Of a stretch of 64,000 bases of DNA, positions 8,709-58,366 are shown in pieces. Origin of the DNA: Nitrosotalea sp. (lineage in GTDB: Archaea > Thermoproteota > Nitrososphaeria > Nitrososphaerales > Nitrosopumilaceae); NCBI GenBank assembly GCA_025451075.1, contig JANWLA010000041.1, positions 1-64,000 of the forward strand, given 5' to 3'. The number at the start of each line of letters is the position of its first letter. Position 1 is the first letter of the stretch. The translations under genes and the position numbers were made by a program. The notes under the pieces are model-generated. The model made no database searches. It was not told where the DNA came from and saw only the letters and a program-made list of their open reading frames with translations.

Positions 8709-9887
8709 ATGAAAAATCTTCTTGCCTTATCTATAATTGTCTCATTGTTGATGGTATCATGTATTGCAGCCTATGCACAACAACCACAACTTGCATCTTA
8801 CCGTGAAACAGCACATATCCTAGTTGATGAAAAAGTGCAGAACCGAACCACGGCATTTATCACATTAGCATCAACAAGCCCTGTTGAAATGCGAGTTCCA
8901 GCAGACCTTAGTCAAAAAGTACAGAATGCGGCCAACGTGACATCAGTTGTAATAACAAATGCACAGAATTGCGTATTAGGAATCCAGGACCAAGGATGTG
9001 TTTTGGTAAACATTGTTTCTCCAGCGCTTATTGAAAGTTACAACATTACAACTATTCAGACAAATGCACGACAAGTGGGAGATACTCTTATCGATAGCAT
9101 AAACAAGGCATTTGCATTAAATGCACAATTTAACAACGTATACGTTAATCCAAAGGGAGACTTGAATGGTGCACTTGGCACATCAGGCATTGTATCTGGA
9201 AACAGGACAATATCTGTAGTGTATACAATGTCAAGACCTGATTCTTCGTATATTTTTGACGGCTTGACTGCAATACTGATACCAAAGCAAATTCGCGATG
9301 ACGGAGGATTCTTCAATGCCGCACAAAAAATGGCCCAAGATACCAACTCTACTGTAACATTTGCAATCACTCCAGGCCAAGGAGCATTGCTTTACCAATT
9401 ACAAGTCTCAAAACAAATTCCAATCAAAACCCAAGTGACTTCAATCAAGCCATTTGAATTATTTGGCATAGACAAGCTTGAAAGATCAAGCTACTTTGAT
9501 GTAGGATTCTTTCCATTGAATTCAATTTTAGATGTCACTGTAATATCAAATCAGAGTCTGGCAATAACTCCGCAGGGCGGAAATGTTGCACCAACTACAG
9601 TCAAGGATGGTCAAAAGTTTCCATCAGACTTGACAAAATCCGGATGGATTATTGACCCAGATTATGGACAGAAAATTTCTGCAATCTACTTATTTGGAAA
9701 AGATACGTCAGTTACAGACAGTCAGGCTTCACTTACTTTGAGTACAAGCGTGCCAACAGTCAGTCAAGACAATACAACAGCTGTATCACCACCACCCGTT
9801 TCAAATACCAATTATTCCATCTATGCATTAATTGGCATAGTTGCAGCCGGCGGCGCCGCAATCTACCTATTTCTTAAAAGAAGATAA
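8709..9887 (+). CDS. secreted/membrane-anchored protein of unknown function
   Basis: N-terminal signal-like segment; C-terminal YALIGIVAAGGAAIYLFLKRR TM anchor. Confidence 0.8.
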   Translation: MKNLLALSIIVSLLMVSCIAAYAQQPQLASYRETAHILVDEKVQNRTTAFITLASTSPVEMRVPADLSQKVQNAANVTSVVITNAQNCVLGIQDQGCVLVNIVSPALIESYNITTIQTNARQVGDTLIDSINKAFALNAQFNNVYVNPKGDLNGALGTSGIVSGNRTISVVYTMSRPDSSYIFDGLTAILIPKQIRDDGGFFNAAQKMAQDTNSTVTFAITPGQGALLYQLQVSKQIPIKTQVTSIKPFELFGIDKLERSSYFDVGFFPLNSILDVTVISNQSLAITPQGGNVAPTTVKDGQKFPSDLTKSGWIIDPDYGQKISAIYLFGKDTSVTDSQASLTLSTSVPTVSQDNTTAVSPPPVSNTNYSIYALIGIVAAGGAAIYLFLKRR

Positions 9888-35172: not shown

Positions 35173-35415
35173 CTAGCCAAGATTCTTTTTTTCTACATAC
35201 TGTTGCAAGATTTTTTCAATATCTTCTGATTTGGATTGTTTTACCTCTTCAACCACGTCTTTTTCTGCAATTTCATAACAATTGAGCAGTTCATTTGAGT
35301 CCTTGTAGAACAACAAAATTTTTTCTTGATATACACAATAGTACAGTTTATCGACTTCCATTTTCTCCGATTTTATCTTAACACCCTCGGGTTCTACTAT
35401 AATTGGATAATCCAT
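35173..35415 (-). CDS. hypothetical protein
   Basis: 80 aa ORF, divergent from dpo4. Confidence 0.55.
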   Translation of the reverse strand: MDYPIIVEPEGVKIKSEKMEVDKLYYCVYQEKILLFYKDSNELLNCYEIAEKDVVEEVKQSKSEDIEKILQQYVEKKNLG

Positions 35416-35515
35416 GTGTCTAGTTTATCCAATAAGCATATTTAGATTATATCAAAGATTGGAGGCCAAGCGCACCAACAATAACGTAATAAGGATTTCA
35501 AATCATAAATTTACC

Positions 35516-36610
35516 ATGACTAGCAGAATCATATTTCATATTGACTTTGATTATTTTTATGCCCAGTGTGAAGAGATACGCAGGCCAGACCTCAAGACAA
35601 GACCTGTTGCAGTATGTGTGTACTCTGACCGTGGAGGAGACAGTGGGGCCATTGCAACTGCAAACTATCTGGCTAGAAAATATGGTGTCAAGTCAGGGAT
35701 GCCAATTAAATTTGCAAAAAAAAAGTTAGAAGACATACCAGAAGCAGTTTTTTTGCCCACAGATTTTGAGTATTATACAGAGACATCAGAGAGTGCCATG
35801 GGTATAATCAGAAACCATGCAGACATTTTTGAGTATGTTGGAAGAGATGAGGCATATCTTGATGTGACAAATAGAACTGGACAAGATTTTAAAAAAGCTG
35901 CCCATCTAGCACAGCAGCTCAAGAACTCGCTGCGTACCACAATCAAGCTCTCAAGTACCATAGGAATATCTTCAAACAAACTAGTCTCCAAGATTGCATC
36001 AGATTACAAAAAACCAGACGGCCTTACCATCGTTGAACCGCAACAAATAGAATCATTTTTGGACCCATTATCGATACGATCAATTCCAGGAATAGGCAAA
36101 AAATCAGAGGAAAAGTTTTCTGAGATGAACCTTGATACAATATCACAACTTCGTGGAGTGGACGTCTTTACATTAAATGGATTATTTGGAAGAAAGGTTG
36201 GATCATACATTTACAATGCAGCGCGCGGAATAGACGAAGATCCAGTATCACCAAGACATGACCCCATTCAGTATAGCAGAATTGTAACACTAAAACAAGA
36301 TTCCAAAGATTTTGATTTTCTTGTAAAGGATTTGGAAAAACTTTGCGATGACTTGCATGAAGCTGTAGTCAAAGATAACATACTTTTCAAATCAGTAGGG
36401 ATACAGTTTGTCCAGTCAGACCTATCAAACAGGACAAAATCAAGAACGCTTAGGAACCCAACATCAAGCTTGGACGAGTTGAAAAAGACCGTAATTCAGC
36501 TGCTCAAAGACTCGCTTGAGGACCAAAAGATTCCCATAAGGCGACTTGGTGTTAGAGTTTCAGACTTTTCACAAATTAGCGGACAGGTAGACATTACAAG
36601 GTTTTTTTAA
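35516..36610 (+). CDS. dinB: DNA polymerase IV (Y family)
   Basis: IIFHIDFDYFYAQCEE; start trimmed from 35414; C-terminal QVDITRFF PIP box. Confidence 0.94.
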   Translation: MTSRIIFHIDFDYFYAQCEEIRRPDLKTRPVAVCVYSDRGGDSGAIATANYLARKYGVKSGMPIKFAKKKLEDIPEAVFLPTDFEYYTETSESAMGIIRNHADIFEYVGRDEAYLDVTNRTGQDFKKAAHLAQQLKNSLRTTIKLSSTIGISSNKLVSKIASDYKKPDGLTIVEPQQIESFLDPLSIRSIPGIGKKSEEKFSEMNLDTISQLRGVDVFTLNGLFGRKVGSYIYNAARGIDEDPVSPRHDPIQYSRIVTLKQDSKDFDFLVKDLEKLCDDLHEAVVKDNILFKSVGIQFVQSDLSNRTKSRTLRNPTSSLDELKKTVIQLLKDSLEDQKIPIRRLGVRVSDFSQISGQVDITRFF

Positions 36611-37092
36611 ATTAAAACCCCAACTCTTGATGCCAGCCTTTTATGTTCATCGTGAGTTATCCATTCCACATGTAGATACTCAAATATCTCATTGTCATCC
36701 ATGCCAAGATTTCTTGCTTCCTCGACTGCAATGGCATAGGCTTCAATCTCAGTTGGTCTATCAACATAAGAGTAGGACTTGTCGTAAAGATCTAGTCCCT
36801 GTCTTTGCTGTTTTACATGCACCAACTCATGGATGATATCCAAATAGAGGATTTTTTTTTCAGAATTTTGAAGGTGGTTTTTGCCTATCACTATAGATGC
36901 GTCGTCATTTTGTACGTGCATATAGTGAGTGTTCTCGTTTACAATTACCGATATATTTTCAAATACGTCGTCAAGGGCTTCGCTTGTTTCAAATATTTTT
37001 AAAAGAATTGCAGTATTTTTTAGATTTACAAAAATCTCTTCAATGTTGTATGTACCGTTCTCTACATCATTATTTACTTTTATCTGGTTCAT
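36607..37092 (-). CDS. putative zinc metallopeptidase-like protein
   Basis: LDIIHELVHVKQQRQG (HExxH) and downstream RPTEIEAYAIA glutamate. Confidence 0.7.
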   Translation of the reverse strand: MNQIKVNNDVENGTYNIEEIFVNLKNTAILLKIFETSEALDDVFENISVIVNENTHYMHVQNDDASIVIGKNHLQNSEKKILYLDIIHELVHVKQQRQGLDLYDKSYSYVDRPTEIEAYAIAVEEARNLGMDDNEIFEYLHVEWITHDEHKRLASRVGVLI

Positions 37093-38014
37093 CTTTTGCT
37101 GCCCCTAGTTTTTTGATTCGTTTTGTTTCAATGTATGTTACTATAAGTAGGAATACGAAAAGCCATGGCAAGAACATGATCTCGCCTGCAATTCCGTGAA
37201 ATGACTCAAACTCGTTTACGTTAGTAGATACCTTGAGGACAAAAATTGATAGTGATAAAATTCGAATTACGTTTACAGTTATTGTTCCTACCACCCCCAT
37301 GGCAAAGTAGACAACCTTTCTGTTTCTTGGAATGTTCATCTTTAACAAAAATGCCATCATCACAAGTGAGTAGATGATCATACTGTGCACACCGGCAGAG
37401 GGCCAAAATACTTGAAGTGCAAACGGACCATGGTCCCCACTTAGGAACATGACGTTTCCATGAGATGTGGCCAACCCCAAGTGAAATAGGTTAATCAAAA
37501 AGACATCAATTTTTACAAGATAGGGTACAACATACTGTAATGGACCCAGGGAATCATATGGGAAAAAGGCGTCAAGGGACAAAATGATTGCAGTACCTGC
37601 AGCATATATCGGGCCTGCAGGAGATATTCGAATCCATCTCTTGCCAAAGAGAATAGTCATGCTTACCATGAAAAATGCAGCAATTACGATAAAGTCCCAC
37701 ATCCAGGTCCAAGAGTCCTTTAGCAGAACATGGAAACTAGGGGCAACTGAGATCAAGTAACTTTTCAAGCCAAATTCTAAACCAACAAGGTAACCAATTA
37801 CCACCAGAGCAAGCGGTATTATTGCAAGCAGGCGTTTCTTTGGAATCTCTAATTTTAAGCCAATCAATTCTGCGGCGATAAAGGCCATCGCAAAAAGAAA
37901 TCCTCCTCTGCCCTGATTCCACCCTAGACTAAATGTCCCAGGAAATACAGCTAGTGCAAATAGTATAGGCGCTGCAAGTATTACCAGTGCAAAGATGACG
38001 CTTTTGTTTTGCAA
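37070..38014 (-). CDS. archaeosortase/exosortase-family integral membrane protein
   Basis: Multi-TM; FWPSAGVHSM, NVIRIL, FHGIAGE motifs in exosortase order. Confidence 0.75.
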   Translation of the reverse strand: MQNKSVIFALVILAAPILFALAVFPGTFSLGWNQGRGGFLFAMAFIAAELIGLKLEIPKKRLLAIIPLALVVIGYLVGLEFGLKSYLISVAPSFHVLLKDSWTWMWDFIVIAAFFMVSMTILFGKRWIRISPAGPIYAAGTAIILSLDAFFPYDSLGPLQYVVPYLVKIDVFLINLFHLGLATSHGNVMFLSGDHGPFALQVFWPSAGVHSMIIYSLVMMAFLLKMNIPRNRKVVYFAMGVVGTITVNVIRILSLSIFVLKVSTNVNEFESFHGIAGEIMFLPWLFVFLLIVTYIETKRIKKLGAAKDEPDKSK

Positions 38015-38054
38015 TAAATTATGTCCAAAGCGTGTTAAATAAAAACTCTAGTAA

Positions 38055-39215
38055 CTAGAAAAAGTCTGATATTGATTTTTGCTTTTTTGCCAAATATAGC
38101 TTGCTGTGAGCGAGCCACTCTTTTTTACCAATGCTCAATCCCCTGCATGCAAAATCCAACCCTTCTTGAAAATTTGAGACTGTCAATGGCTTTTGTTTTA
38201 GAGCCATGCGAACTCCCTCGCGAACTTGCCAGACTCCAACTGGCACTGCATACTCTGGCCTGATCTCTCTGAGTACCATGACAGCTGCCTGGATTTTGTT
38301 TTCAGCAAGATATTCCGACACTGCAAGTCTTGAAGCAAAATGTGCACCAGCAGTTTGTGGATAGTGTGTCATACCTTTGGCATCTTCAAAGTCAGATCCA
38401 AATCCCACATTTCCTTGTTCATCATACCAAGCCTCTTGCATTTCAAACATCCATCTGCTTGGAAACATGACAACAGAGAAAAAGTTACCCAAGTGATCAT
38501 ATGAAAAGACCAGGGATGTATCCAGCATTCCATATTCCATTATTTTTTCAACAAGAGATTTTGAAACAATGTCATCTGTTGCAGTAATGCTCCATCGGGT
38601 TGGGACAAGTTTTCGGTTTTTGCCAAACATTCCTATGCTGAAACATTTCTGAATTCTTGAGATTTCTATGCCCCTGTTGTAAAGTTCTACCACAGCATCC
38701 TGGGCCAAAAAGTCCCTGTCATAAAATGCCCGTTGGATGTTTTTATCAGATGTCGAGTTTGAAAATTTGGCAGACTTTATCTCCCCAATAGGTCCAAAAA
38801 TAGGACTGTCCCCGTCAATTGAGACTGTAGGTGACGCATTTTTTACAAGTTCCATCTCAGCATCGGTTGATTTTTCTGACATGGACATTTCCTGGAGGTT
38901 TTCAATGTATTTTTGCCCAACATCGTCTATCTTTACAGGCTTTATCCCACGAACCAAACTTAGCCTATAGTTTACTATATCCTCAAGACTCTTTCCAGTC
39001 CATTTTTCTGGAGAATCTAATATCATCATATCACCGTGAACGGGAGGCAGCATTGGCCCTACCAAGACTTTGGGGTAACCATATGCTCCAACAAAAACAG
39101 AAGGTGGAGTGGAACCATCAACATGATTAGATGAAAAGAGATTACCATAACGTGAAAGGTATTCTTTCCAGTTTGATTCTATTGACTTTCGTATATCAGT
39201 GGCAGTTCGCTTCAC
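38055..39215 (-). CDS. nreA: NreA-type DNA repair protein with C-terminal PIP box
   Basis: FVGAYGYPKVLVGPMLPPVHGD; C-terminus KKQKSISDFF. Confidence 0.88.
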   Translation of the reverse strand: MKRTATDIRKSIESNWKEYLSRYGNLFSSNHVDGSTPPSVFVGAYGYPKVLVGPMLPPVHGDMMILDSPEKWTGKSLEDIVNYRLSLVRGIKPVKIDDVGQKYIENLQEMSMSEKSTDAEMELVKNASPTVSIDGDSPIFGPIGEIKSAKFSNSTSDKNIQRAFYDRDFLAQDAVVELYNRGIEISRIQKCFSIGMFGKNRKLVPTRWSITATDDIVSKSLVEKIMEYGMLDTSLVFSYDHLGNFFSVVMFPSRWMFEMQEAWYDEQGNVGFGSDFEDAKGMTHYPQTAGAHFASRLAVSEYLAENKIQAAVMVLREIRPEYAVPVGVWQVREGVRMALKQKPLTVSNFQEGLDFACRGLSIGKKEWLAHSKLYLAKKQKSISDFF

Positions 39216-44376: not shown

Positions 44377-45945
44377 TCATTTTCTCTTCCTAGTAAATAA
44401 CAACATTCCAATAGAAACGCCAATAGATATAGGCACACCAACAGCTGCCAAAATGACGGCATTGTACAGGTCATTGGCATGACTGTTTTCTGCGTAGACT
44501 TGAACTGCTGGAACTTTTGATGGTGGTCCAAGATGTAAGAGGTCTCCATGGTTTAGATTAACCATATTGCCAAACGTATTTCCATAATCATTGCTTGCAA
44601 CTAAAAACAAATCATCGCCTGGCAAAGAAGTATTCATTGCAATGTAAACATTTTTGCCTAACGATATCATTTGTGTTTGGAAATAATCTTGTTTTTCATC
44701 TGTTAGCTTGATGGCATCATCAAAGATAGTACCGTTATCCATGCTTTTTCTAATAAAGACCTCCTCTTTGTCTCCAAATTTATTTCCCCATGAGACAAAC
44801 ACACTATTCCCAGATGCTGCAATATTTGACCAGTAACTTGTTCCCACGGGACCACTCATATCAAGAGGTTCACTGAATGTATTTCCACCATCATGGCTTT
44901 GTGTAAGAAATATGCCAGATGTTGGACTAGGCCCAAAGCCAATACCCTTGTTCACAATGTTTCCGTTATCATATTTCCATATCACATAGAGATCCTTTCC
45001 TGATGCCACCATGTGTGGAGAGCTTGATTCGCCCAATTTTTGCCCAATTATTTGCGGATTATTAAAACTATTTCCACCATCATTACTTTTTGCAAGGAAC
45101 ACGTCTACTTCATCCCCAGCAAGCTGACCCCATACTGCATATACATTATTCTCAGATGAATACACATCCAAGTCTACAGGGTTTACAACAGTTGCAATGT
45201 GAAGTGGAATTTCAAATGTTGCACCATTATCAATGCTCTTCCAAAGCAAAATATCATAACTACAAACATTAGGATTGTCTGAACAGCCAATTTCATCTTC
45301 CCCTGTTATGTAGATTACATTCCCAACTTTTTGCATCGAAGTATCAAATGTCATCAAATGTCCAGATGCAGGCAACAATTTCACCTTGTTTCCAAATGTA
45401 GTGCCATTGTCATAGCTTGTCACAAGATAATCAGCGGTATCATATGGAGGAGCATCACCTGTTTCTGTAATCAAAGCATACACATTGGTTCCATCAGACA
45501 TAAGATGATTTACTACAGAATTTGCAGACATGTTGGCATCCAATACAATAGTGGCAGCAAATGTTTTTCCATCATCTGCACTTTTTGTAAACAACACACT
45601 AGACGGAGGATAACCAACACCGCCAGAAAGCCACGCCATGTATATGTTATTTCCAGAGGCCGCCATTAGTGGTGAATTTCCAGTTTCACCATCAAGCATG
45701 ATTGGACTAGTAAAACTATGACCTGCATCAGTACTCCTTGTAAAAAATACATGAGATGTTCCTCCATTATTGCCATTTTCTTGGTATGTGACATAGACAT
45801 TGTTCCCTACAGAGACCATGTTAGAGAATTGATAATGTATAACTTGTACAGGCCCTCCAAGAGATATCTGGCCAAAGGCTGGGCTTGCAGATTGAATTGC
45901 AATCATGCCAAATACAATCAAAATTGCAAGGTGTAAAGTTTTCAT
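44377..45945 (-). CDS. secreted BNR/sialidase-like repeat protein, C-terminal TM anchor
   Basis: Repeated S.D.G.TF blades (STDAGHSF, SADDGKTF, SIDNGATF, SNDGGNSF, SHDGGNTF); TM then RKRK. Confidence 0.85.
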   Translation of the reverse strand: MKTLHLAILIVFGMIAIQSASPAFGQISLGGPVQVIHYQFSNMVSVGNNVYVTYQENGNNGGTSHVFFTRSTDAGHSFTSPIMLDGETGNSPLMAASGNNIYMAWLSGGVGYPPSSVLFTKSADDGKTFAATIVLDANMSANSVVNHLMSDGTNVYALITETGDAPPYDTADYLVTSYDNGTTFGNKVKLLPASGHLMTFDTSMQKVGNVIYITGEDEIGCSDNPNVCSYDILLWKSIDNGATFEIPLHIATVVNPVDLDVYSSENNVYAVWGQLAGDEVDVFLAKSNDGGNSFNNPQIIGQKLGESSSPHMVASGKDLYVIWKYDNGNIVNKGIGFGPSPTSGIFLTQSHDGGNTFSEPLDMSGPVGTSYWSNIAASGNSVFVSWGNKFGDKEEVFIRKSMDNGTIFDDAIKLTDEKQDYFQTQMISLGKNVYIAMNTSLPGDDLFLVASNDYGNTFGNMVNLNHGDLLHLGPPSKVPAVQVYAENSHANDLYNAVILAAVGVPISIGVSIGMLLFTRKRK

Positions 45946-45946
45946 T

Positions 45947-47356
45947 TTACTTACCTCCAGTGGAATTGATAAAATTACCAGATGGTAATACTATGACTTG
46001 ACCTCTCAACCATGGTCCAGGTTCTCCATGATATCCATAAGTTCCAGGGTTATCAAATGTGTAAACCCATGTTTGATTTGTGGTCAGAGAATTTGATCTG
46101 AATTGTCCCTTGTCTCCCACTATAGCATACATTGAATCATCCGCGTTTGTCCACTGGACAGTATTATTTACGCCAATCTGCACTGTCACTGTTTGAGGCG
46201 TAACATGTCTTCCAAATGTACTCAAGGCAGGTGGAATTAGAATCTGCGTCATGTTGTTTTCTCTAGGTATGCAATAATTATTGTCGTCCTTGTCTATTTC
46301 ATAACAAAGCATTCCATGAGACTCTCGAATATTTTTACAGTTTTGATCACAGATTATTTGGTGTGGCGGGTTAAATGTGACACTGCCCATGTTGCCACAG
46401 TCATTATCCATAGGATAGCTTGCATTGTAAATTACAAGTTTTCTTGTGTCTATTGCGACAGACGCATACCATCCCTTATCACAGGCAACCTTAGGATTTC
46501 CAGAATTGGGCGGAAGGTACAGTCCAAGTTGTGAAAAATGTATGTCATACTTGTCATTTCCAATATAATTTCCCCCAGTAAACTTCCATCCAGTTTTGGA
46601 CCATTGCCTTAATGGTGCAAGATTCATGACATCATAGAAGAACTTGTCTTGCTGTACCTGAGTTGAATATCCTGCGTCAAGAAGAGAAGACATGGGATTT
46701 ACAGCCCAACCCCTGATGACTAGGTTAGCCAAGTCATCTGGCAAGATACATGCAGGCATGCTGTCTTCTTTTTTGATTGTCAATACCAGATTGTCACATT
46801 TCACATCATTTGGTGCAATTCCTAGCCTGACCTGTTGCAGAGGCGGTGGGTGTACCATATCGATTGTAGATGTATCATCATAAATTGTAAACATGAATGA
46901 TTTTGAGATGGTCTTTTCTCCACCTGATGGACCAGAACTTGTTTGATTGTATAGCAGATATGAGAATGTCACAGTTGCATTTGTAATTCCTGCAGATGTT
47001 GCAGTGTAAACAAGATTAGAGCTTGGCTCTATAGTACGAATTTGTTGTCCCGGGTTTAATGTCTGCACAATATCTCTTGGGATACAGGACCCTTTTGTGT
47101 CAGATGTTGCATGATTATCAAAGAATATTGAAAAAAAATCTCGGCATGCATGTTCCTGTACATATATCGCATGAGTAGAGTTGTTGACCAGAGTTGCACT
47201 AACTGTAAATGTATTCCCAACTTTGATGATTGGAGGATCTACTTGTAGGTTGATTACAGTTACACCAGCAACAGTTGAATCGGCAAAGACATTGTGATCA
47301 ACTATACCAAGAGATGCACATGAGATCATAATTATTAAAAGAGGAATTGTTTTCAT
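45947..47356 (-). CDS. secreted protein: CARDB-like + 'PLQQ' domain + degenerate cupredoxin-like domain
   Basis: VINLQVDPPIIKVGNTFTVSATLVNNS; PPLQQVRLGIAPNDVKC; NTVQWTNADDS...GTYGYHGEPGPWLRGQVIVLP. Confidence 0.8.
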   Translation of the reverse strand: MKTIPLLIIMISCASLGIVDHNVFADSTVAGVTVINLQVDPPIIKVGNTFTVSATLVNNSTHAIYVQEHACRDFFSIFFDNHATSDTKGSCIPRDIVQTLNPGQQIRTIEPSSNLVYTATSAGITNATVTFSYLLYNQTSSGPSGGEKTISKSFMFTIYDDTSTIDMVHPPPLQQVRLGIAPNDVKCDNLVLTIKKEDSMPACILPDDLANLVIRGWAVNPMSSLLDAGYSTQVQQDKFFYDVMNLAPLRQWSKTGWKFTGGNYIGNDKYDIHFSQLGLYLPPNSGNPKVACDKGWYASVAIDTRKLVIYNASYPMDNDCGNMGSVTFNPPHQIICDQNCKNIRESHGMLCYEIDKDDNNYCIPRENNMTQILIPPALSTFGRHVTPQTVTVQIGVNNTVQWTNADDSMYAIVGDKGQFRSNSLTTNQTWVYTFDNPGTYGYHGEPGPWLRGQVIVLPSGNFINSTGGK

Positions 47357-47568
47357 TTTTTTCTTGCTCCTGCATAAATTGCAATTCCCACAACTACAGA
47401 TATGATTACCACAACCGCAGGAATAGTAAATTGCTCTTGTAATGTATTATCCGTATAAGTATATGTAGTTGCATTTTCAGGAGTTGAACTAAATTCTTGA
47501 TCAGTTGCAAATGCTTGCAGTGTTACAATGGACAATCCCATAATTATTGTAAGATGTAGAGTTTTCAT
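47353..47568 (-). CDS. small secreted/membrane protein
   Basis: MKMKTLHLTIIMGLSIVTLQAFA-type signal and C-terminal TM IPAVVVIISVVVGIAIYAGARKK; start trimmed from 47592. Confidence 0.65.
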   Translation of the reverse strand: MKTLHLTIIMGLSIVTLQAFATDQEFSSTPENATTYTYTDNTLQEQFTIPAVVVIISVVVGIAIYAGARKK

Positions 47569-47617
47569 TTTGTACCTGTACTGGATATGCATGCTTTAAA
47601 AAACTGGTGTAGGATTC
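47569..47617 (-). promoter_or_regulatory. shared promoter module, copy P2
   Basis: Minus strand CCTACACCAGTTTTTTAAAGCATGCATATCCAGTACAGGTACAAA-ATG. Confidence 0.6.
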
Positions 47618-47662
47618 TTCTGTTTTTTATGAATATCTAGAGTTTTCATTTTCCATTCAACT

Positions 47663-49546
47663 CTATTTTTCTGTAGACAGGGGAGGTAAAATTTTAACCG
47701 GAACATAAAATGGAATTAATTGCATTGCTCTAGCTGTATAATATTTTTGAGCATCAGGAATCATGTGATAGACTGATGTGTAAAGACCGATTTGTATCAC
47801 TCCATAATTGCCTGTACCTACACTAGACCACGGGATGTCTGAATCTTCTATATAGGTTCCAGCAATCTGTACTTTTTCTTGAGTTGTGGAATTGTCAACA
47901 TGGGCATTTGCAGATGGATCTGGATAAGAAGGCCCATTTCCAGTGCTTAGAGAATGTAACGCATTTTTATCAAAAACAAGTTTTATTATTTTCGGGCTGC
48001 TTTCAATTTTGTTCGCAAAGACACCCCCAAGCAAGAGATAGCTGTTCCCGTCAGTTGCATTTACCACTGCATCATAGCTGATATGAGGTGGAAGTGAGTC
48101 AAGTGACATTCCAGGAAAGACTTTGAAATCATCATGTATGTTTTGGATTTTTTGTCTTGCTAATTCTTTTTTCATTTCATCTTTTATCAGAAAACTTCCA
48201 AGTTGGTCATAGAAAGCGTCTTTGTATTTTTCATAATAGGCTTTTAGTTGTTCTGGCGTTTTGTTTTTCCATTCATCTACAGTTTGTGACAGGTAGGTGG
48301 CATCATCTGTAACCTTCGACTCGGTGTAATTAGTCGAAGACGATACTTGATTATCAGTACTAACCAATAATTTCATTTTTCCATCATAAAATGTCAGACC
48401 TGCCTGCGGGTTTGTATGATTGCTAAACATGGTTTGTTTTGGATATATTGGACACGGCTGAGAATCCGCAAACATGTGTAACAATTCATGAATACCATCA
48501 GAAAACTTGGCATCAGCCCAATAGTAAGAACCGCCTCCAGACATTATTTCACCCACGGTATCATTGCTTCCGCAACCACCACTAGGCAACCCCCCTCGAA
48601 ACCCTGGAGGAAACAAGGTAAAAACCACATCATGAAATGAAACTTGCACGGGATTAGAATAAGCAGTATCAGTGTAGTTTGGTGTTACAAAATAATAGGT
48701 CTGATTTCCAAATGTAATTATTCCGGCATTATCTTCCAATCCCATGATTCTGTTAGGCAGCGGTTTGATGGAATCTATTGGTTGCATTGCCCATCCCCAT
48801 TTACGTTCAACAAGCTTTTGTGCTGTTTGTGGTCTTGCACAAGCAGGAGAACCATCTTTTGTTTTGATTACAAGCTGAAGACCTTGTCCGCATTTTACAT
48901 TATCTGCTGCAATACCAGACTTGAATTGCTGCAACGGAGATGCATTTTTGATTTTAGATACAGTAGTGGAATTGGCATATTTTGAAATGTTTCCCTTGTC
49001 GTCTATTGACCACCAGGAATCAAATGTTGGAGGATGGGTTTGATCAACTATACCATTAGTATAAACAAGAGCCAGAACTTCGATATGAAAATGATAAGTG
49101 CCTGGCGTAAATGCAGACATTTCTATGGGAAGTATGTCATTATTTGACATCATTCCTCCCAGGACTGGTTCTGCAGTACCATTTATGACCCATTTTCCGG
49201 TGTCGCTACCAGGAGAGAATTTCAGTGTCATGGAACCAGTGTGAGTAAAAAATAATTCATGTATCAAAATAGTATCATCTTTTGTGGCATTGACAAAAAA
49301 ACTGACATTTTTTACCAGTGTCTTATTTTTTTCGTCAAAGAATTCAAGATAAAGATCTTTTGTGGAATTGGGAGATACTTGATCAAATTTGTCATACAGG
49401 ACTAGAGACATGTTTGAAAGGTCAGGACTGTGAGCATCAAATCCAGTCAAGGAACCAGAGTCAGATAAGGCAAAAGGAAGTTGAATCAGAATGGACATTG
49501 TAACCCCAATCAAGGCTGAAATTATGAGAATTTGTAGAGTTGTCAT
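47663..49546 (-). CDS. large secreted protein with 'PLQQ-SGI' domain
   Basis: Signal peptide (MTTLQILIISALIG); SPLQQFKSGIAADNVKCGQGLQLVIKTKDGSPAC...WGWA. Confidence 0.78.
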   Translation of the reverse strand: MTTLQILIISALIGVTMSILIQLPFALSDSGSLTGFDAHSPDLSNMSLVLYDKFDQVSPNSTKDLYLEFFDEKNKTLVKNVSFFVNATKDDTILIHELFFTHTGSMTLKFSPGSDTGKWVINGTAEPVLGGMMSNNDILPIEMSAFTPGTYHFHIEVLALVYTNGIVDQTHPPTFDSWWSIDDKGNISKYANSTTVSKIKNASPLQQFKSGIAADNVKCGQGLQLVIKTKDGSPACARPQTAQKLVERKWGWAMQPIDSIKPLPNRIMGLEDNAGIITFGNQTYYFVTPNYTDTAYSNPVQVSFHDVVFTLFPPGFRGGLPSGGCGSNDTVGEIMSGGGSYYWADAKFSDGIHELLHMFADSQPCPIYPKQTMFSNHTNPQAGLTFYDGKMKLLVSTDNQVSSSTNYTESKVTDDATYLSQTVDEWKNKTPEQLKAYYEKYKDAFYDQLGSFLIKDEMKKELARQKIQNIHDDFKVFPGMSLDSLPPHISYDAVVNATDGNSYLLLGGVFANKIESSPKIIKLVFDKNALHSLSTGNGPSYPDPSANAHVDNSTTQEKVQIAGTYIEDSDIPWSSVGTGNYGVIQIGLYTSVYHMIPDAQKYYTARAMQLIPFYVPVKILPPLSTEK

Positions 49547-51021
49547 TTTCTAAATTTCACCCCATAGAATACAATAACAGATACCATTCCGATCAACATG
49601 ACTGGAACTGCAAATGGAAATTCTGGAACTGATATAGTATTTTGTTCAGCAAAAGTCCACTTTTCCCCATTAAACTGCCATGTTTTATTATCATTGTAAA
49701 CATCTGTCAGTAAAGGCGCTGATGTAGCATAATGCTTTCCGTCATAATTATATGAAATTAGTATAGTTCGATTTGTTGGATCTAGTGTCATAGGCATATT
49801 GATAGGGAAAAATGAAAATGTACATTTTTCATGTGATCCAATTTCAGGTATAGAGTAGTATGGTCCTGCTTCGGTAATTCCGGAACTAACAGTAGAAGGT
49901 ATTTTGACATCAAAATATTGTAATTGTATTGCTTTGTCTTGCGTGTTGTACATGTCAAACCATTGTGGAGCATGAACATTACCTGAACTCTGAGAGCCTA
50001 AACAATCCTTGTTTGTACCACTAGTGTATTGATGAATTGGCTCACAAGTTCCACTGCCAAGAAAATATGCACATTGAATTTTTTTTCCAGGAATCAAACC
50101 AGTCAAACAGCTATGTTGTGCATCCAAGCCATATTCTGAACTACAGGTCTGGTTGTCGGGAAAAAATGCAAGTGAGCTATCAAGCTCAACCTGAGTTATT
50201 ATCACTGGAGGATTTTTGTTTTCAAGATCCATGCTAGTTCCTATAATTTTCACGTACCAGTTTCCGTCAGTTGAGTATGGATGAAATGGTAGATCAATCA
50301 AGAGTGTTCTTGTATCAGAAGAAGTCTGTGTCTCATTGAAATTCACACTTTGCATGTATTGTGTTTCTGGAGTATTATCAGCCAATACAGTAAAGCTAGT
50401 ATCACCTTGATCTGATTTGGAATCAATTAGGCCTCGGGGTAACTTGATTTTAAGTGTGGAATGACCTGTCACATTTACGACATGTATTGTTATTGATTTT
50501 TCCATAAGACTGGTATCAATTTTATTTATTACTCCGTCAACTAGAGCGTATACCAAAGAGTAATGCGTTCCGTTTATTTTCAAGTCGTATGGAGTGGCTT
50601 GATACATGAATGCCGAACCGTATGACATTGTATTCAGATCTGGACTGAGATAAAAATTGTAATACCCACTAGTGGCATTTTCTCCCTCTATCTTAAATGA
50701 GTAGACAAATGAACCATTTGAACTAGTATTGAACTGATCAGAGCGATACAGAATCATTTTTGGATTATATATTTTGATTGACAGATGAGTCCCATACTTT
50801 GATAAGATGTATTGGTCTACATTGCCAGAAATTGTGATTTTATCCCCATCAGTATATGCCGTGCTATCGGATTTTATGGTCATGTGAATTGGTGGTGGAC
50901 CTGCGCATAACTGCGTTCCATTTGGTCCGATGGCACAGGGCGCATAAACATTTGGAGGATAGACTGTGACAATTATCACAATTCCAACTATTGTGATTAT
51001 TGAGAGATGCAGAGTTTTCAT
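49543..51021 (-). CDS. secreted PEF-CTERM-type protein
   Basis: MKTLHLSIITIVG signal; C-terminus ISVPEFPFAVPVMLIGMVSVIVFYGVKFRK. Confidence 0.82.
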   Translation of the reverse strand: MKTLHLSIITIVGIVIIVTVYPPNVYAPCAIGPNGTQLCAGPPPIHMTIKSDSTAYTDGDKITISGNVDQYILSKYGTHLSIKIYNPKMILYRSDQFNTSSNGSFVYSFKIEGENATSGYYNFYLSPDLNTMSYGSAFMYQATPYDLKINGTHYSLVYALVDGVINKIDTSLMEKSITIHVVNVTGHSTLKIKLPRGLIDSKSDQGDTSFTVLADNTPETQYMQSVNFNETQTSSDTRTLLIDLPFHPYSTDGNWYVKIIGTSMDLENKNPPVIITQVELDSSLAFFPDNQTCSSEYGLDAQHSCLTGLIPGKKIQCAYFLGSGTCEPIHQYTSGTNKDCLGSQSSGNVHAPQWFDMYNTQDKAIQLQYFDVKIPSTVSSGITEAGPYYSIPEIGSHEKCTFSFFPINMPMTLDPTNRTILISYNYDGKHYATSAPLLTDVYNDNKTWQFNGEKWTFAEQNTISVPEFPFAVPVMLIGMVSVIVFYGVKFRK

Positions 51022-51068
51022 ATTTTACATGTACTGTACGCGTATAGTTTAAAAAATTGGTGTAGGTT
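51022..51068 (-). promoter_or_regulatory. shared promoter module, copy P1
   Basis: Minus strand CCTACACCAATTTTTTAAACTATACGCGTACAGTACATGTAAAAT-ATG. Confidence 0.65.
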
Positions 51069-51167
51069 TCTTCTGGTTTAAAAAATAAAAATGCATCAAA
51101 AAACCTCAAAATTGTAGATTATACATCAAAACTAGTGTACTACCACATGAAAATCCATTATCTTTGA
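51066..51167 (+). repeat. repeated zinc-finger-tail fossil, copy A
   Basis: Frame reads VSSGLKNKNASKNLKIVDYTSKLVYYHMKIHYL*. Confidence 0.65.
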
Positions 51168-51250
51168 GAACCTTCTAAACTGTATTGATCTTACATAATA
51201 TTTCTAGCATACCAAGATATGTAATGCAACTTGAGTATAATTGATAATTC

Positions 51251-54200
51251 GTGGTAGACAAGCCCACAATCAATTCTAGAAAATATTTTCTTACGCTTGT
51301 CTTTGCTTCAATATTTTTAGTATCGTTTGGAATGATTTCACACAATGCATTTGCAGATACTGTGACAACTACAATACCAGTAAGCGGTGCTTTTGGCGTA
51401 GTAACTAATCCTAATACGAACTTGACTTATGTTGCTACTGGTCAAGGCTATCAGATTCAGGTCATCAATGATACCACCAATGCAGTAATTGCTACTATAC
51501 AAACACATGATCCCGCTCCAACTCAAAATAACAGTGGTAGTTGTAAGACACTTTACTTGGCTGTGAACCCAATCACAAACCTGGTCTATGCCGATAACGG
51601 AGGCTGTGAACTCTACTATCAAAACGTGCAAAGTCCATACGACGCCAGTGTTTCCGTAATAAATGGTACTAACAAAGTCGTTGCCACCATACCACTTGGT
51701 AATAATTGGGGATCCTTCCCAATTACAGTAAATCCAGTAACAAACAAGATTTACACTTCTGACTTTGAAGATGATGTAGATGTAATTGATGGCACATCTA
51801 ATACGGTAACAACACTGACCCTTAAAGCAACAGAGTATGATGGCATTGCCTCTAACCCCAACTCCAACATGGTTTACGTACTTGGACAGTATGGTGCAAC
51901 TTCAGTAATTAACGTGATTAACGGCTCAACTAACTCCATTGTAAACACTTTCGCTTTCGGCGGATATTCTCAAATGGGCATTAGTGTCAATCCTACCACA
52001 AACAAGGTCTATGTTTCAAATGCTTATCCATGTAACAATACTGGCAACCAATTCGTTGGGGGCAATGCATGTAACGCCAACTCTGGTCCATTTGTTGGTG
52101 TGATTGATGGCACTACAGATCAAGTGTTATCTACAATACCTGACACCGACCACGGCTATGTCGGTATAAACCCAATTACAGACAAGATCTACATAGGTAA
52201 TAATGGAGGCAATACTGTCTCTGTCATAGATGGACAAACCGACACTGTGACCAGCCAAGTCCAAGTTGGAAATGGTCCATTTGGAATCGGAATAAATACT
52301 AATACAAACAAAATCTATGTGGGTAACAGTGGTAGCTCTACAATCTCAGTAATAGATAGTAACTCATCCAGTACATCAACAGTTCCATCTGCACCGCAAA
52401 ACCTAGTAGCGACGGGAGATAATTCCAAAATTGCTCTGTCTTGGTCTGCACCATCATCTAATGGCGGTTCTCCAATCACAAACTACAAGATATACAAATC
52501 GACTAGTTCTGGAACTGAAACACTATCTGCAACAACAGGAAATGTAACTTCATACAATGACACTTCAGTAACTAATGGTCAGACATATTTCTATAAAGTA
52601 ACGGCTGTCAACTCAGTAGGTGAATCATCACAATCTAATGAGGCAAGTGCAACACCAACAGGAGCAGGGGTGACAGTACAGTCTGTCGACCAAAACAATA
52701 ATCCGATCTACGGTATCTTCACACTACTCTGTTCTCAAGGAACATCAACAACTGCCAACGGTAGCAATACCTGTGAGACAGGCCAATCACGATTAGCCAG
52801 TGGAAATACTACTGTGACCTTTGGTTCTATGCCACAGGGGCAAACTTTTGGAGTGGATGTTTACAACAATGCTACCTGCTCATTTAATCACTGGTCAGAT
52901 AACACTGCTAACACATACAAATTCCGTCTCTTTACTGCTTCAAACCCGCCATCAATTCTTACTGCAGTGTACAGCTGCGGTAACACCACTACTGTACCGC
53001 AGTCACCAATAGGGGTTATTGCCAATGCTGTTTCATCATCACAGATTGATCTGTCCTGGACTGCACCATCCAATAATGGTGGTTCTCCAATTACAGGATA
53101 CAAGATTGAAAGATCAAATAACACTGGTACCACTTGGTCCAATGTACAATCCAACACAGGTTCCACAGATACAACATACAATGACACTGGACTTTCGTCC
53201 AGCACAACCTACACATACAGAGTATCTGCAATAAATTCCGCTGGAACAAGCCTACCATCTAATATTGCATCTGCAACAACACAAACAGCTGCACCGCCAG
53301 CAGGTATTACATTAAACAACATCCAGTCAACATCAGGTACCGTATCTTCATCACCATATCAAATCACACTTGCAAACTTTAACTCAGGTACCGGTAGCAA
53401 TCAACTACTTGTTGTGGGAATAAGTGCAAACAATAACAATGTAGCTTCAGTTACATTTGGTGGAGTCTCGTTAACAAAAAAAGTATCTTCCTTCTCTAAC
53501 AATGACGCCGAGTTTTGGTATCTCAAAAATCCTGCAAGTACTGGAAACATTGTTGTCACCATGGCAGGTTCAACATCTGCTGTAGTTGGAGCTTATTCAT
53601 TTTCTGGAGTAAACCAAACAAGTCCATTGCCTACCAGTACAACAAATCATAATTCAGCGGCTGGCAGTCCTACTGTAACAATAACTACGACAAATCCCAA
53701 CAGCTGGGTTCTTGACCTGCCGTCAATTTATGGTGGCGTAACACTTGGTTCACCAACCTGCACACAACAATGGGATACACACATGCCAAGCAAAATAACT
53801 GGTGCATCAAGCTCTGTCATGCAAACAACAGCAGGCTCGCTCACATGCAAGTGGACTGCAAGCAGTGGTGAGATGTGGGACGATGTTGCAGTTGAAATAA
53901 AAGCATCTAGTACAGGTTCAGGCAGTACCCCTACAGTTCCATCATCACCTACAGGACTGACAGCTAGTGCCGCATCTTCATCGCAGATCAACCTGTCCTG
54001 GACTGCACCTGCAAACAGCGGTGGTGCTACTATAACAGGATACAAGATTGAACGTTCCACTGACTCGGGTTCTACCTGGTCGTCTCTAGTTGCAAACACT
54101 GGCAGCACATCTACAAAATATTCTGATACTGGATTGAGTCCAAGTGCATCTTACACATACAGGGTATCTGCAATCAATTCTGCAGGATCTAGCGCTCCAT

Positions 54201-55156
54201 CAAACATATCATCTGCCACTACGCCTAGCAATACAACTGTACCATCACCGCCTACAGGACTTGGTACAACCGCAGTATCATCATCGCAAATCAACCTGTC
54301 CTGGACTGCACCATCAAGCAACGGTGGCTCTGCAATAACAGGATATAATGTGCAACGCTCAGTCAACAACGGCAATACATGGTCTACTGTCGTATCCAAT
54401 ACCGGCTCTACTGCTACTGTATTCAATGACACCGGATTATCCCCAAGTACAACCTACGCATATCGAGTGTCTGCAATAAACTCGGTCGGAACAGGCTCTC
54501 CATCAAATGTTTCCTCTGCAACAACTAGTGCGGCTACAACAAGCGGCGGCATCACACTTGTCAATGTCCAGTCAACATCAAGTTCAACATCTCCCTCAAA
54601 TCCTATAATGCTTGCAGACTTTAATGTTGGAACTGGAAACAACAGGCTGCTTGTTGTTGGTGTAAGTGCAGACAATAGCGATGCAGCTTCTGTAACATTT
54701 GGCGGCGTACCGTTAACAAAAAAAGTATCCACTTTTTCCAACAATGATGCCGAGTTTTGGTATCTGAAAAACCCAACTGGCACTGGAGCAATCGTAGTTA
54801 CAATGTCAGGCTCCACATCAGCAGTCGTTGGCGCATATTCATTTTCTGGAGTAAACCAGTCAAGCCCATTGCCTACTAGTATAGTAAACCACAATTCTGC
54901 TGCCAGCAGTCCTACTGTATCCATTACCACAAAATTTGCAAATGATTGGGTCTTGGACCTACCTTCAATTTATGGTGGTGTAACACTTGGCTCTCCAACT
55001 TGCACATCGCAATGGAATGCAAACATGCCAGGTGCAATCACTGGCGCATCAAGCTCTGCAATGGTCCAGTCTCCAGGTTCTGTCACATGCAAGTGGACTG
55101 CAAGCAGTGCTGATCTATGGGATGATGCTGCAGTTGAGATTGCAGCGTCAAAGTGA
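51251..55156 (+). CDS. 1301-aa secreted YVTN beta-propeller/fibronectin-III mosaic protein
   Basis: GTG start; signal peptide; NPNTNLTYVATG/NPVTNKIYTSD/NTNTNKIYVGN blades; FN3 units 'PSSPTGLTASAASSSQINLSWTAP...'. Confidence 0.85.
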   Translation: MVDKPTINSRKYFLTLVFASIFLVSFGMISHNAFADTVTTTIPVSGAFGVVTNPNTNLTYVATGQGYQIQVINDTTNAVIATIQTHDPAPTQNNSGSCKTLYLAVNPITNLVYADNGGCELYYQNVQSPYDASVSVINGTNKVVATIPLGNNWGSFPITVNPVTNKIYTSDFEDDVDVIDGTSNTVTTLTLKATEYDGIASNPNSNMVYVLGQYGATSVINVINGSTNSIVNTFAFGGYSQMGISVNPTTNKVYVSNAYPCNNTGNQFVGGNACNANSGPFVGVIDGTTDQVLSTIPDTDHGYVGINPITDKIYIGNNGGNTVSVIDGQTDTVTSQVQVGNGPFGIGINTNTNKIYVGNSGSSTISVIDSNSSSTSTVPSAPQNLVATGDNSKIALSWSAPSSNGGSPITNYKIYKSTSSGTETLSATTGNVTSYNDTSVTNGQTYFYKVTAVNSVGESSQSNEASATPTGAGVTVQSVDQNNNPIYGIFTLLCSQGTSTTANGSNTCETGQSRLASGNTTVTFGSMPQGQTFGVDVYNNATCSFNHWSDNTANTYKFRLFTASNPPSILTAVYSCGNTTTVPQSPIGVIANAVSSSQIDLSWTAPSNNGGSPITGYKIERSNNTGTTWSNVQSNTGSTDTTYNDTGLSSSTTYTYRVSAINSAGTSLPSNIASATTQTAAPPAGITLNNIQSTSGTVSSSPYQITLANFNSGTGSNQLLVVGISANNNNVASVTFGGVSLTKKVSSFSNNDAEFWYLKNPASTGNIVVTMAGSTSAVVGAYSFSGVNQTSPLPTSTTNHNSAAGSPTVTITTTNPNSWVLDLPSIYGGVTLGSPTCTQQWDTHMPSKITGASSSVMQTTAGSLTCKWTASSGEMWDDVAVEIKASSTGSGSTPTVPSSPTGLTASAASSSQINLSWTAPANSGGATITGYKIERSTDSGSTWSSLVANTGSTSTKYSDTGLSPSASYTYRVSAINSAGSSAPSNISSATTPSNTTVPSPPTGLGTTAVSSSQINLSWTAPSSNGGSAITGYNVQRSVNNGNTWSTVVSNTGSTATVFNDTGLSPSTTYAYRVSAINSVGTGSPSNVSSATTSAATTSGGITLVNVQSTSSSTSPSNPIMLADFNVGTGNNRLLVVGVSADNSDAASVTFGGVPLTKKVSTFSNNDAEFWYLKNPTGTGAIVVTMSGSTSAVVGAYSFSGVNQSSPLPTSIVNHNSAASSPTVSITTKFANDWVLDLPSIYGGVTLGSPTCTSQWNANMPGAITGASSSAMVQSPGSVTCKWTASSADLWDDAAVEIAASK
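53303..53917 (+). repeat. internal duplicated domain, copy 1
   Basis: ITLNNIQSTSG...LLVVGISANN...FWYLKNP...WTASSGEMWDDVAVEIKAS. Confidence 0.75.
54548..55155 (+). repeat. internal duplicated domain, copy 2
   Basis: ITLVNVQSTSS...LLVVGVSADN...FWYLKNP...WTASSADLWDDAAVEIAAS. Confidence 0.75.
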
Positions 55157-55180
55157 TTTTTGACAAATTTTTATTTGAAA

Positions 55181-55252
55181 AATTGCTGATTATTCATCAA
55201 AACTAGTGTACTACCACATGAAGATACATTACCTTTAAGATAGAGTTTTCAT
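55181..55252 (+). repeat. repeated zinc-finger-tail fossil plus ATGAAAACTCTA motif, copy D
   Basis: KIADYSSKLVYYHMKIHYL* frame followed by gatagagttttcat. Confidence 0.65.
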
Positions 55253-55259
55253 GTTATCA

Positions 55260-56909
55260 CTAAGGATATGGAACGTATTTGACTCCAATTCCACTCAAAC
55301 CAACAATGTGATAATTATAGAGTTGTGCGGGACAATAATACGTACCACCAAGCCATGGAAAATCACCTTGAACAAAGGTAGATGTACTATCATATCCTAC
55401 TGCAAAGGGCATTCCCACACAGAATATGGTCAATCCGTAAAATCCCACACGGTTTGTTGTTTTTACAGTATACACAATAGTACTGTTTCCTGTTTGAATT
55501 TTGTCAGGTGTCGCATATGATGTGATATCCTTGGTATCATCATCTATGTGATGTGCTTCAAAAATTCTGAGCCCTGTTGGCTGCGGAGGATTTGAATTAG
55601 AATATTGAACACATATTTTCCCAGTAGAGTTCACTGGCATGTACAATACTACAATACCACTATTTGATTGCGGATAGGGACTATCACATGGCATGAAGGA
55701 TGCAGGTAAAGTAGTGTTGTCCTCTCTAGACGTATGACTGTCAGTATTGAGATGTGGTAAAACAATAACTGTTCCTTTCATCCATGGATGAGGTTCTGTA
55801 TGATAGGTAAATGTTCCAGGTTCTGTAAATGTAAGCACGTATGACTGCCCCGGTTTTATCACACCATCACTATCAAATGGTTTACCGTCTTGCATTGTTG
55901 GAATGTCAGATACAATGGTGTTTCCAACATCTGCTTGATTTATCCACTGTACAGTGTTATTTATCCCAATTATTACCGTAGCAGTGTCAGGGCTGTACGT
56001 ATTGTGGGATGCTTGATTTTCGGAACCCGGTGTGATTATTATTGTGGTATAATTTTCATTGCTTACACTTGTTCCATAAAGAAATCCTCTTGAAGCAAGT
56101 TTTGAAATTGTTTCGGCCTTGAGGCACATAGGATCTTGGTTATGTGATTTCACTACTAGATAGAGACCTTCTTTGCAAGTAATATCGCTCATGCCAACTC
56201 CTGACTTGAATTGCTCCAGTGGTGAGAGTGCAATAGGTGCCTTGTCTATTGAGACAGTCGAGGTACTGCCCAAAGCAGAATTTATCGTAATTTGTATTTG
56301 CGAATGTTCTACGCCTCTTGTTGCACCAATTTGCCATATTCCTGAAACGGCATTTGTTGGAATTGTAAAATTAAGCGATGAAAAATGCCCAGTCTTATCT
56401 GAAACTGTTTGTGTTGATTCTACAGAAATGCCATTAGGATCAATTAACGATAATTGGATCAGAGTATTCGAATTCTCAGTACCCAGTATTATGACAGGGT
56501 CCCCGGGACGGTATGAATTTTTGTCAGTATTAAGAGACATGTATCCACCTGTTGGCATAAGACCTACTGCAAAATCTAGTTTGATCTCATCTGTCCCGTC
56601 CCCAACTATGACAGAGCAAATTCCCGGATTGTAAGATGATATGTCAAACGAATATGTGGCAGACCCGTTTTCAAGCGTGATATTTTTATCTAGTTTTTGC
56701 AATCCATGCGAATCTAGTACAAGTAAATTGAGGGTTGCATTTGGTTTTGCAAATATAGACAAGAGTGGTTTTTCTGAATTTTGATAATTGTTTTTGTCAA
56801 GAATTGCATGAAATTGAGGACCAGGTATGGAGGTTATTCCAGATGCAAAAGTAACTGGTAGTAGTGATAATACCGTAATTATAATTATTGAAAGATGTAG
56901 AGTTTTCAT
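55260..56909 (-). CDS. secreted protein with two Ig/MG2-like domains, 'PLEQ-SG' domain and cupredoxin-like domain
   Basis: MKTLHLSIIII signal; LNTDKNSYRPGDPVIILG; SPLEQFKSGVGMSDITCKEG; GTFTYHTEPHPWMKGTVIVLP. Confidence 0.82.
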   Translation of the reverse strand: MKTLHLSIIIITVLSLLPVTFASGITSIPGPQFHAILDKNNYQNSEKPLLSIFAKPNATLNLLVLDSHGLQKLDKNITLENGSATYSFDISSYNPGICSVIVGDGTDEIKLDFAVGLMPTGGYMSLNTDKNSYRPGDPVIILGTENSNTLIQLSLIDPNGISVESTQTVSDKTGHFSSLNFTIPTNAVSGIWQIGATRGVEHSQIQITINSALGSTSTVSIDKAPIALSPLEQFKSGVGMSDITCKEGLYLVVKSHNQDPMCLKAETISKLASRGFLYGTSVSNENYTTIIITPGSENQASHNTYSPDTATVIIGINNTVQWINQADVGNTIVSDIPTMQDGKPFDSDGVIKPGQSYVLTFTEPGTFTYHTEPHPWMKGTVIVLPHLNTDSHTSREDNTTLPASFMPCDSPYPQSNSGIVVLYMPVNSTGKICVQYSNSNPPQPTGLRIFEAHHIDDDTKDITSYATPDKIQTGNSTIVYTVKTTNRVGFYGLTIFCVGMPFAVGYDSTSTFVQGDFPWLGGTYYCPAQLYNYHIVGLSGIGVKYVPYP

Positions 56910-57535: not shown

Positions 57536-58366
57536 CTAGTTTACATTGATCTTGAGCCTGTAAAATGCAATTACAGAAATTATTCCAATCAACATGACTG
57601 GAACTGCAAAAGGAAATTCTGGAACTGTCACAGTGTTTTGTTCAGCAAAAACCCACTTGTTACCATCAAATTGCCAGGTTCCCGAATCGTTGTTGGTATC
57701 AGTCAACGAGGGTGTGGCAGTCGTATACGGCTTTCCGTCATAATAGTATGAAACTTCTATGGTCATGTTAACCGGTTTAACTTCAAGGGCTCCCTGAGAA
57801 TAGCTGTTAGAGAGTGCAAGTGTGCACTTTTCATGCGGCCCAATGCCAAAACCCCCGCCCTTGCTTTGTTGCACGTCATTGCCCGAGATAAGTTTGAAAC
57901 CAAAATATTGTATCTGTACAGTTTTGTTTTGTGTATTATACAAATCAAACCATTGTGAGCCAGACGAGATGGGTTGCACCGAATCGCCAAAGCAGCTCTT
58001 GTTTGTGCCGCTGGTATACTGGTGAAGCGGCTCACATGAATTGCCAGAAATATACGAACATTCAACTTTGCGATCCGAGACCAAGTTTGTGAGACAGCTG
58101 TGCTGCGGATAAACTGCGGGCTGCGACGTGCATGTTAGGTTGTCTGGCAGGAACTTGAACTGGCTTGCAAGCTCCACCTGACTTAATATTACAGGCGGGC
58201 AACATGGAGGCCATTCCGGAGGGCTCAAGTTTTTTACAGTTGTTGTATGTGTTACAGTAACACTCTTGTTTTCTGCTACAAATGAATCTGGTTCTGCTAT
58301 TGAGCTTGCACTGTTAAACGTTAATACTCCAAGTACGACAACTACTAGCAAAAGTAGAGTTTTCAT
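57536..58366 (-). CDS. secreted PEF-CTERM-type protein, paralog of 49543 C-terminal half
   Basis: C-terminus VTVPEFPFAVPVMLIGIISVIAFYRLKINVN; shares CEP(I/L)HQYTSGTNK block. Confidence 0.82.
   Translation of the reverse strand: MKTLLLLVVVVLGVLTFNSASSIAEPDSFVAENKSVTVTHTTTVKNLSPPEWPPCCPPVILSQVELASQFKFLPDNLTCTSQPAVYPQHSCLTNLVSDRKVECSYISGNSCEPLHQYTSGTNKSCFGDSVQPISSGSQWFDLYNTQNKTVQIQYFGFKLISGNDVQQSKGGGFGIGPHEKCTLALSNSYSQGALEVKPVNMTIEVSYYYDGKPYTTATPSLTDTNNDSGTWQFDGNKWVFAEQNTVTVPEFPFAVPVMLIGIISVIAFYRLKINVN

Follow-up and report, generated by a model that had tools for sequence, protein, structure and literature searches.

The 64,000-nucleotide stretch of DNA analysed here, hereafter the window, carries on its minus strand (37070..38014) a gene with a TTG start for a polytopic membrane protein of 314 amino acids which is, on sequence criteria, the thaumarchaeosortase (TIGR04297) of Ca. 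Nitrosotalea. It is the single archaeosortase of this genome, probably sorting proteins with PEF(G/P) tags by means of a putative Ser206 nucleophile at the position of the catalytic Cys. The protein is in itself an ordinary find, an ordinary member of a family, found in ammonia-oxidising archaea and related lineages, which, together with its tag, has already been named in public libraries. The curators of TIGR04297 reportedly remarked on the Ser, and no mention of "thaumarchaeosortase" or "TIGR04297" was found in the literature searched. What the present analysis adds is a single origin for the Ser, the identification of Cys-bearing sisters and a PEFP tag common to both.

A thaumarchaeosortase with serine at the catalytic cysteine position

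The window protein matches the NCBIfam model TIGR04297 with 468.6 bits (E = 1e-140, positions 1-301 of the 307 in the profile; curated cut-off 250 bits) and the exosortase/archaeosortase signature TIGR04178 with 44.7 bits (cut-off 23), while its score on PF09721 (Exosortase_EpsH), 20.0 bits, is under the Pfam gathering cut-off of 25.7. The sequence-only reading, which had described an archaeosortase-like protein and guessed at a known thaumarchaeal variant, was thus right on both counts, and the three motifs it had cited, FWPSAGVHSM (37379-37408), NVIRIL and FHGIAGE, are present in that order. The match to the family is full length, the Ser motif is identical and the organisms are the same; we found no difference, save that the window protein and its genus score fewer bits than several other genera. 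Proteins in named Nitrosotalea records are at most 93% identical to it (91% for N. devanaterra).

Alignment with Cys-bearing relatives places Ser206 (codon TCT, 37397..37399, minus strand) where the family has its catalytic Cys, as had been claimed from the sequence, and places with it a catalytic-type Arg251 (37262..37264, minus) and a catalytic-type His273 (37196..37198, minus). The Cys expected of the TIGR04178 superfamily is therefore absent, but since the TIGR04178 model still takes in the protein, its loss bears on mechanism and not on homology. Throughout an alignment of 120 sequences the Arg and the His are invariant, while the nucleophile position is Ser in 76, including two from a separate family of exosortase-like proteins (L032 and L033), and Cys in the other 44.

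The alignment with thaumarchaeal members proposed by the sequence-only reading finds the Ser to be fixed: every one of the 154 family loci sampled (140 distinct cores) has it at the nucleophile position. The sampled members, drawn from a wide range of genomes, share the motif W-P-S-A-[GA], with PSAA in L048 where others have PSAG, and all 80 named loci read VFWPSAGV. In these 80 the Ser is encoded by TCT (50), TCA (12), TCC (10) and TCG (8), and this use of all four TCN codons implies that selection holds the residue rather than the DNA. One record titled Gammaproteobacteria bacterium (L212, BMAH01000059.1) also carries the thaumarchaeal gene, at 68% identity, and is most likely mislabelled or a mixed assembly.

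The catalytic role could in principle have passed to another nucleophile or partner, whether a Cys at some other site of the same protein or an additional sortase encoded in the genome, and two or more exosortase-type proteins do occur together in other lineages (G004, G067, G137, G146). The window protein, however, contains no Cys at all, conserved or otherwise, nor do 100 of the 154 family loci, and it is the sole TIGR04178 match in its source genome, which is 85% complete. We regard this explanation as very improbable.

Solved structures include no relative detectable by sequence (the lone profile match, at E = 0.97, is not credible), and a fold search of the PDB returned no match at E <= 0.001. 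In an AlphaFold model of the window protein (mean pLDDT 82.5, pTM 0.72) the Ser lies at the start of a transmembrane helix, right after strands; the adjoining residues 203-205 are those of lowest confidence (pLDDT <50).

Cysteine-bearing relatives and the history of the substitution

A phylum-wide search with TIGR04297 also recovered relatives below the cut-off, of which 40 sequences were taken and aligned. These carry Cys in the same motif, in the form NWPCAG in L093-L095 (with near variants in L092 and L096), SWSCAGSHS in L097-L099 and AWPC[AS]G in most others; the nearest non-members read NWPCAGVLS. Over its full length the window protein shares 31-33% identity with the closest of them, which makes these as near to it as the deepest Ser members (28-36%). 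The group L092-L096 (families f39, f58, f60 and f67) shares with the window protein full-length identity of about 31-33%, the motif flanking the nucleophile and, in three of the four families (f39, f58 and f67), PEFP tags, but has a Cys nucleophile and scores 115-164 bits on TIGR04297, below the 250 of the cut-off.

Ser and Cys labels were read from the alignment column and a maximum-likelihood tree of 80 rows was built with that residue masked. All 44 Ser rows fall on one side of one branch (support 93/82, found in 92% of bootstrap trees), so that one Cys/Ser change is needed, and in an unmasked tree the Ser rows adjoin the Cys clade L092-L096. The tree was drawn at the midpoint, and the change was read as running from Cys to Ser because Cys is the usual state across the superfamily. 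The simplest history compatible with these sequences would be one Cys-to-Ser change in the common ancestor of the lineage.

A second exosortase-type protein with Ser in place of the catalytic Cys (GEPSSG) occurs in family f2 (L316-L319, from G137, G067, G099 and G077). Its open frames are of 326-755 amino acids, three of the four with a long C-terminal extension, and its nearest models are XrtD and XrtW; the substitution there seems independent of that in the thaumarchaeosortase.

It might be supposed that the change was an adaptation to ammonia oxidation, in which an outward-facing Cys would be exposed to nitric oxide and copper. The sampled amoA-positive genomes which have the enzyme all have Ser, and so does the second exosortase-type protein of the f2 genomes (PSSG). 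Against this, a search for archaeal amoA drew no match in six genomes of deep Ser lineages (f4, f7, f8, f14 and f15, each 88-96% complete) and did match in the ammonia oxidisers taken as positive cases, which indicates that the Ser is older than ammonia oxidation or is not tied to it. The source draft has no archaeal amoA match either, although at 85% completeness a single absence of this kind is weak. This is the least probable of the explanations considered.

Sorting tags, candidate substrates and the proposed role of Ser206

Tags were counted genome-wide by profile searches. The source genome has 14 PEFG-CTERM (TIGR04296) tags above cut-off and more PEFG, PEFP and PEFS tails below it, and a PEFP-tail profile gives at least nine matches at E < 1e-10, two of them in the window; three of the nine were absent from the set used to build that profile. 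The two in the window belong to secreted-looking proteins whose N-termini resemble signal peptides: one of 276 amino acids (57536..58366, minus; PEFPF, transmembrane segment and basic tail at 57536-57622), which scores 15.7 bits on the PEFG-CTERM profile, under the cut-off of 25, and one of 492 amino acids with an MG2-like domain (49543..51021, minus; tail at 49543-49626). PEFPF-tailed proteins of the window had been put forward from the sequence as candidate substrates, and these two are plausible as such, but most tags of the genome are of the PEFG type and PEFPF tails are in the minority.

Among 300 genomes of the class, 187 have both the enzyme and PEFG tags, 95 have neither, 12 the enzyme only and 6 the tag only (Fisher p = 2e-56, a value which ignores relatedness, as the tag correlation tracks phylogeny and the 300 genomes are not independent). 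The six tag-only genomes are all drafts, 80-88% complete, and the twelve with the enzyme only are mostly from deep lineages, some of them with PEFP tails instead. In genus g23, four near-complete genomes (G070, G093, G100 and G114) have neither thaumarchaeosortase nor PEFG tags, and G070 has amoA; this coupled absence is a possible natural control.

PEFP tails occur both in the deep Ser lineages (for example GTTVIPEFPGLALLIILTLSLLVLGVIQKRFR in G189) and in their Cys sisters (for example IPIPEFPAAAIALISALAASLYILRRIKK in G323), the Cys-enzyme genomes with such tags being G323, G337, G485, G416, G406 and G375, the last two with several IPEFPSW tails. The PEFP profiles behind these assignments are short and were built in part from the genomes against which they were searched, and one genome (G163) has a PEFP tail with no enzyme found. 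PEFG hits above cut-off were found in neither the deep Ser lineages nor the Cys sisters. The presence of PEFP with both types of enzyme implies that the tag is older than the change of nucleophile, and PEFG looks like a later elaboration.

Among other subfamily models, the best for the window protein is that of ArtC (TIGR03762), at 28.1 bits, but this is far under the ArtC cut-off of 100. The partner tag of ArtC is said to be the PEF-CTERM of methanogens, which is near PEFP. ArtA of Haloferax volcanii (PGF-CTERM) is likewise a multi-transmembrane enzyme with the order nucleophile, Arg, third residue, and acts on tripartite tags. Its C173S mutant is reportedly inactive, from which it would follow that Ser is not automatically tolerated. 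ArtA differs in having Cys173, Arg214 and Arg253, all critical (PMC9263693), and a PGF tag, where the window protein has Ser, Arg and His and PEF(G/P) tags.

One might then ask whether the Ser form is no longer a protease and instead binds or chaperones PEF-tailed proteins, or inserts them into the membrane uncut. The replacement of the nucleophile, the reported inactivation of ArtA by the same substitution and the fact that the tails double as plain transmembrane anchors would all fit. A dead site should, however, drift to Ala, Gly or other residues, and this one has kept Ser in all 154 loci and Arg and His in all 120 aligned sequences; the tag set has also been retained as in the Cys-bearing relatives. 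We consider loss of proteolysis unlikely. Activity assays of any family member were not found in the literature searched. Most likely, in our analysis of these sequences, the thaumarchaeosortase actively sorts its substrates as a protease/transpeptidase with a putative serine nucleophile, a reading which draws on the invariance of Ser, Arg and His, the lack of a spare Cys, the occurrence of one enzyme with many tags and the fact that the same tag class is served by Cys and Ser enzymes.

An active enzyme of this kind would lie in the cytoplasmic membrane with its active site facing outside, and would take secreted proteins ending in PEF(G/P), a transmembrane segment and a basic tail. Cleavage would take place close to the PEF motif, with Ser206 forming an acyl(ester)-enzyme and Arg251 and His273 assisting, and the C-terminus so created would be handed to an acceptor in the membrane, perhaps a lipid by analogy with ArtA, so that the substrate would be kept on the cell surface. 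The change from Cys to Ser would have taken place in the common ancestor of the lineage with the basic tag unchanged. More tentatively, in a reading for which the sequences leave the balance nearly even, this may be a natural serine-nucleophile sortase, the lineage's only PEF-tag enzyme having swapped Cys for Ser once, with the ancestral tag kept and compensating changes enabling the Ser to act in a site where this substitution reportedly inactivates ArtA, and the PSSG protein of f2 (L316-L319) having made the same swap separately.

The setting is a clean one, with a single Cys-to-Ser change, Cys sisters using the same tag, no spare Cys and an intact tag repertoire, and whether an archaeosortase can work on serine thereby becomes testable by one-residue swaps in both directions. 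The question bears on the anchoring of surface proteins in the most abundant ammonia oxidisers, in whose ammonia oxidation pathway a multicopper oxidase with a PEFG tag has been proposed to take part (PMC9122916).

Gene neighbourhood and other surface-type proteins of the window

The gene lies in a conserved order (35414-39215 in the window) comprising an nre homologue, the thaumarchaeosortase, in some cases an M78-like peptidase and a convergent DNA polymerase IV-like gene. In the 44 loci with full flanks the polymerase is always present and Nre is found in 42. The small M78/IrrE-like putative metallopeptidase (36607-37092, with a weak Pfam score) is present in 24 of the 44 flanks; in the window the first 23 bases of its gene are also the last 23 of the thaumarchaeosortase gene.

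Two further proteins of the window (8709-9887, plus strand; 44377-45945, minus strand) end in a transmembrane helix and a basic tail with no PEF motif, and these ends are either plain tail anchors or another kind of tag. The window also has a cluster of surface-type proteins (44377-56909), three of them with a WING-49 domain, two of these also with cupredoxin domains, which includes a fibronectin-III/beta-propeller protein of 1301 amino acids.
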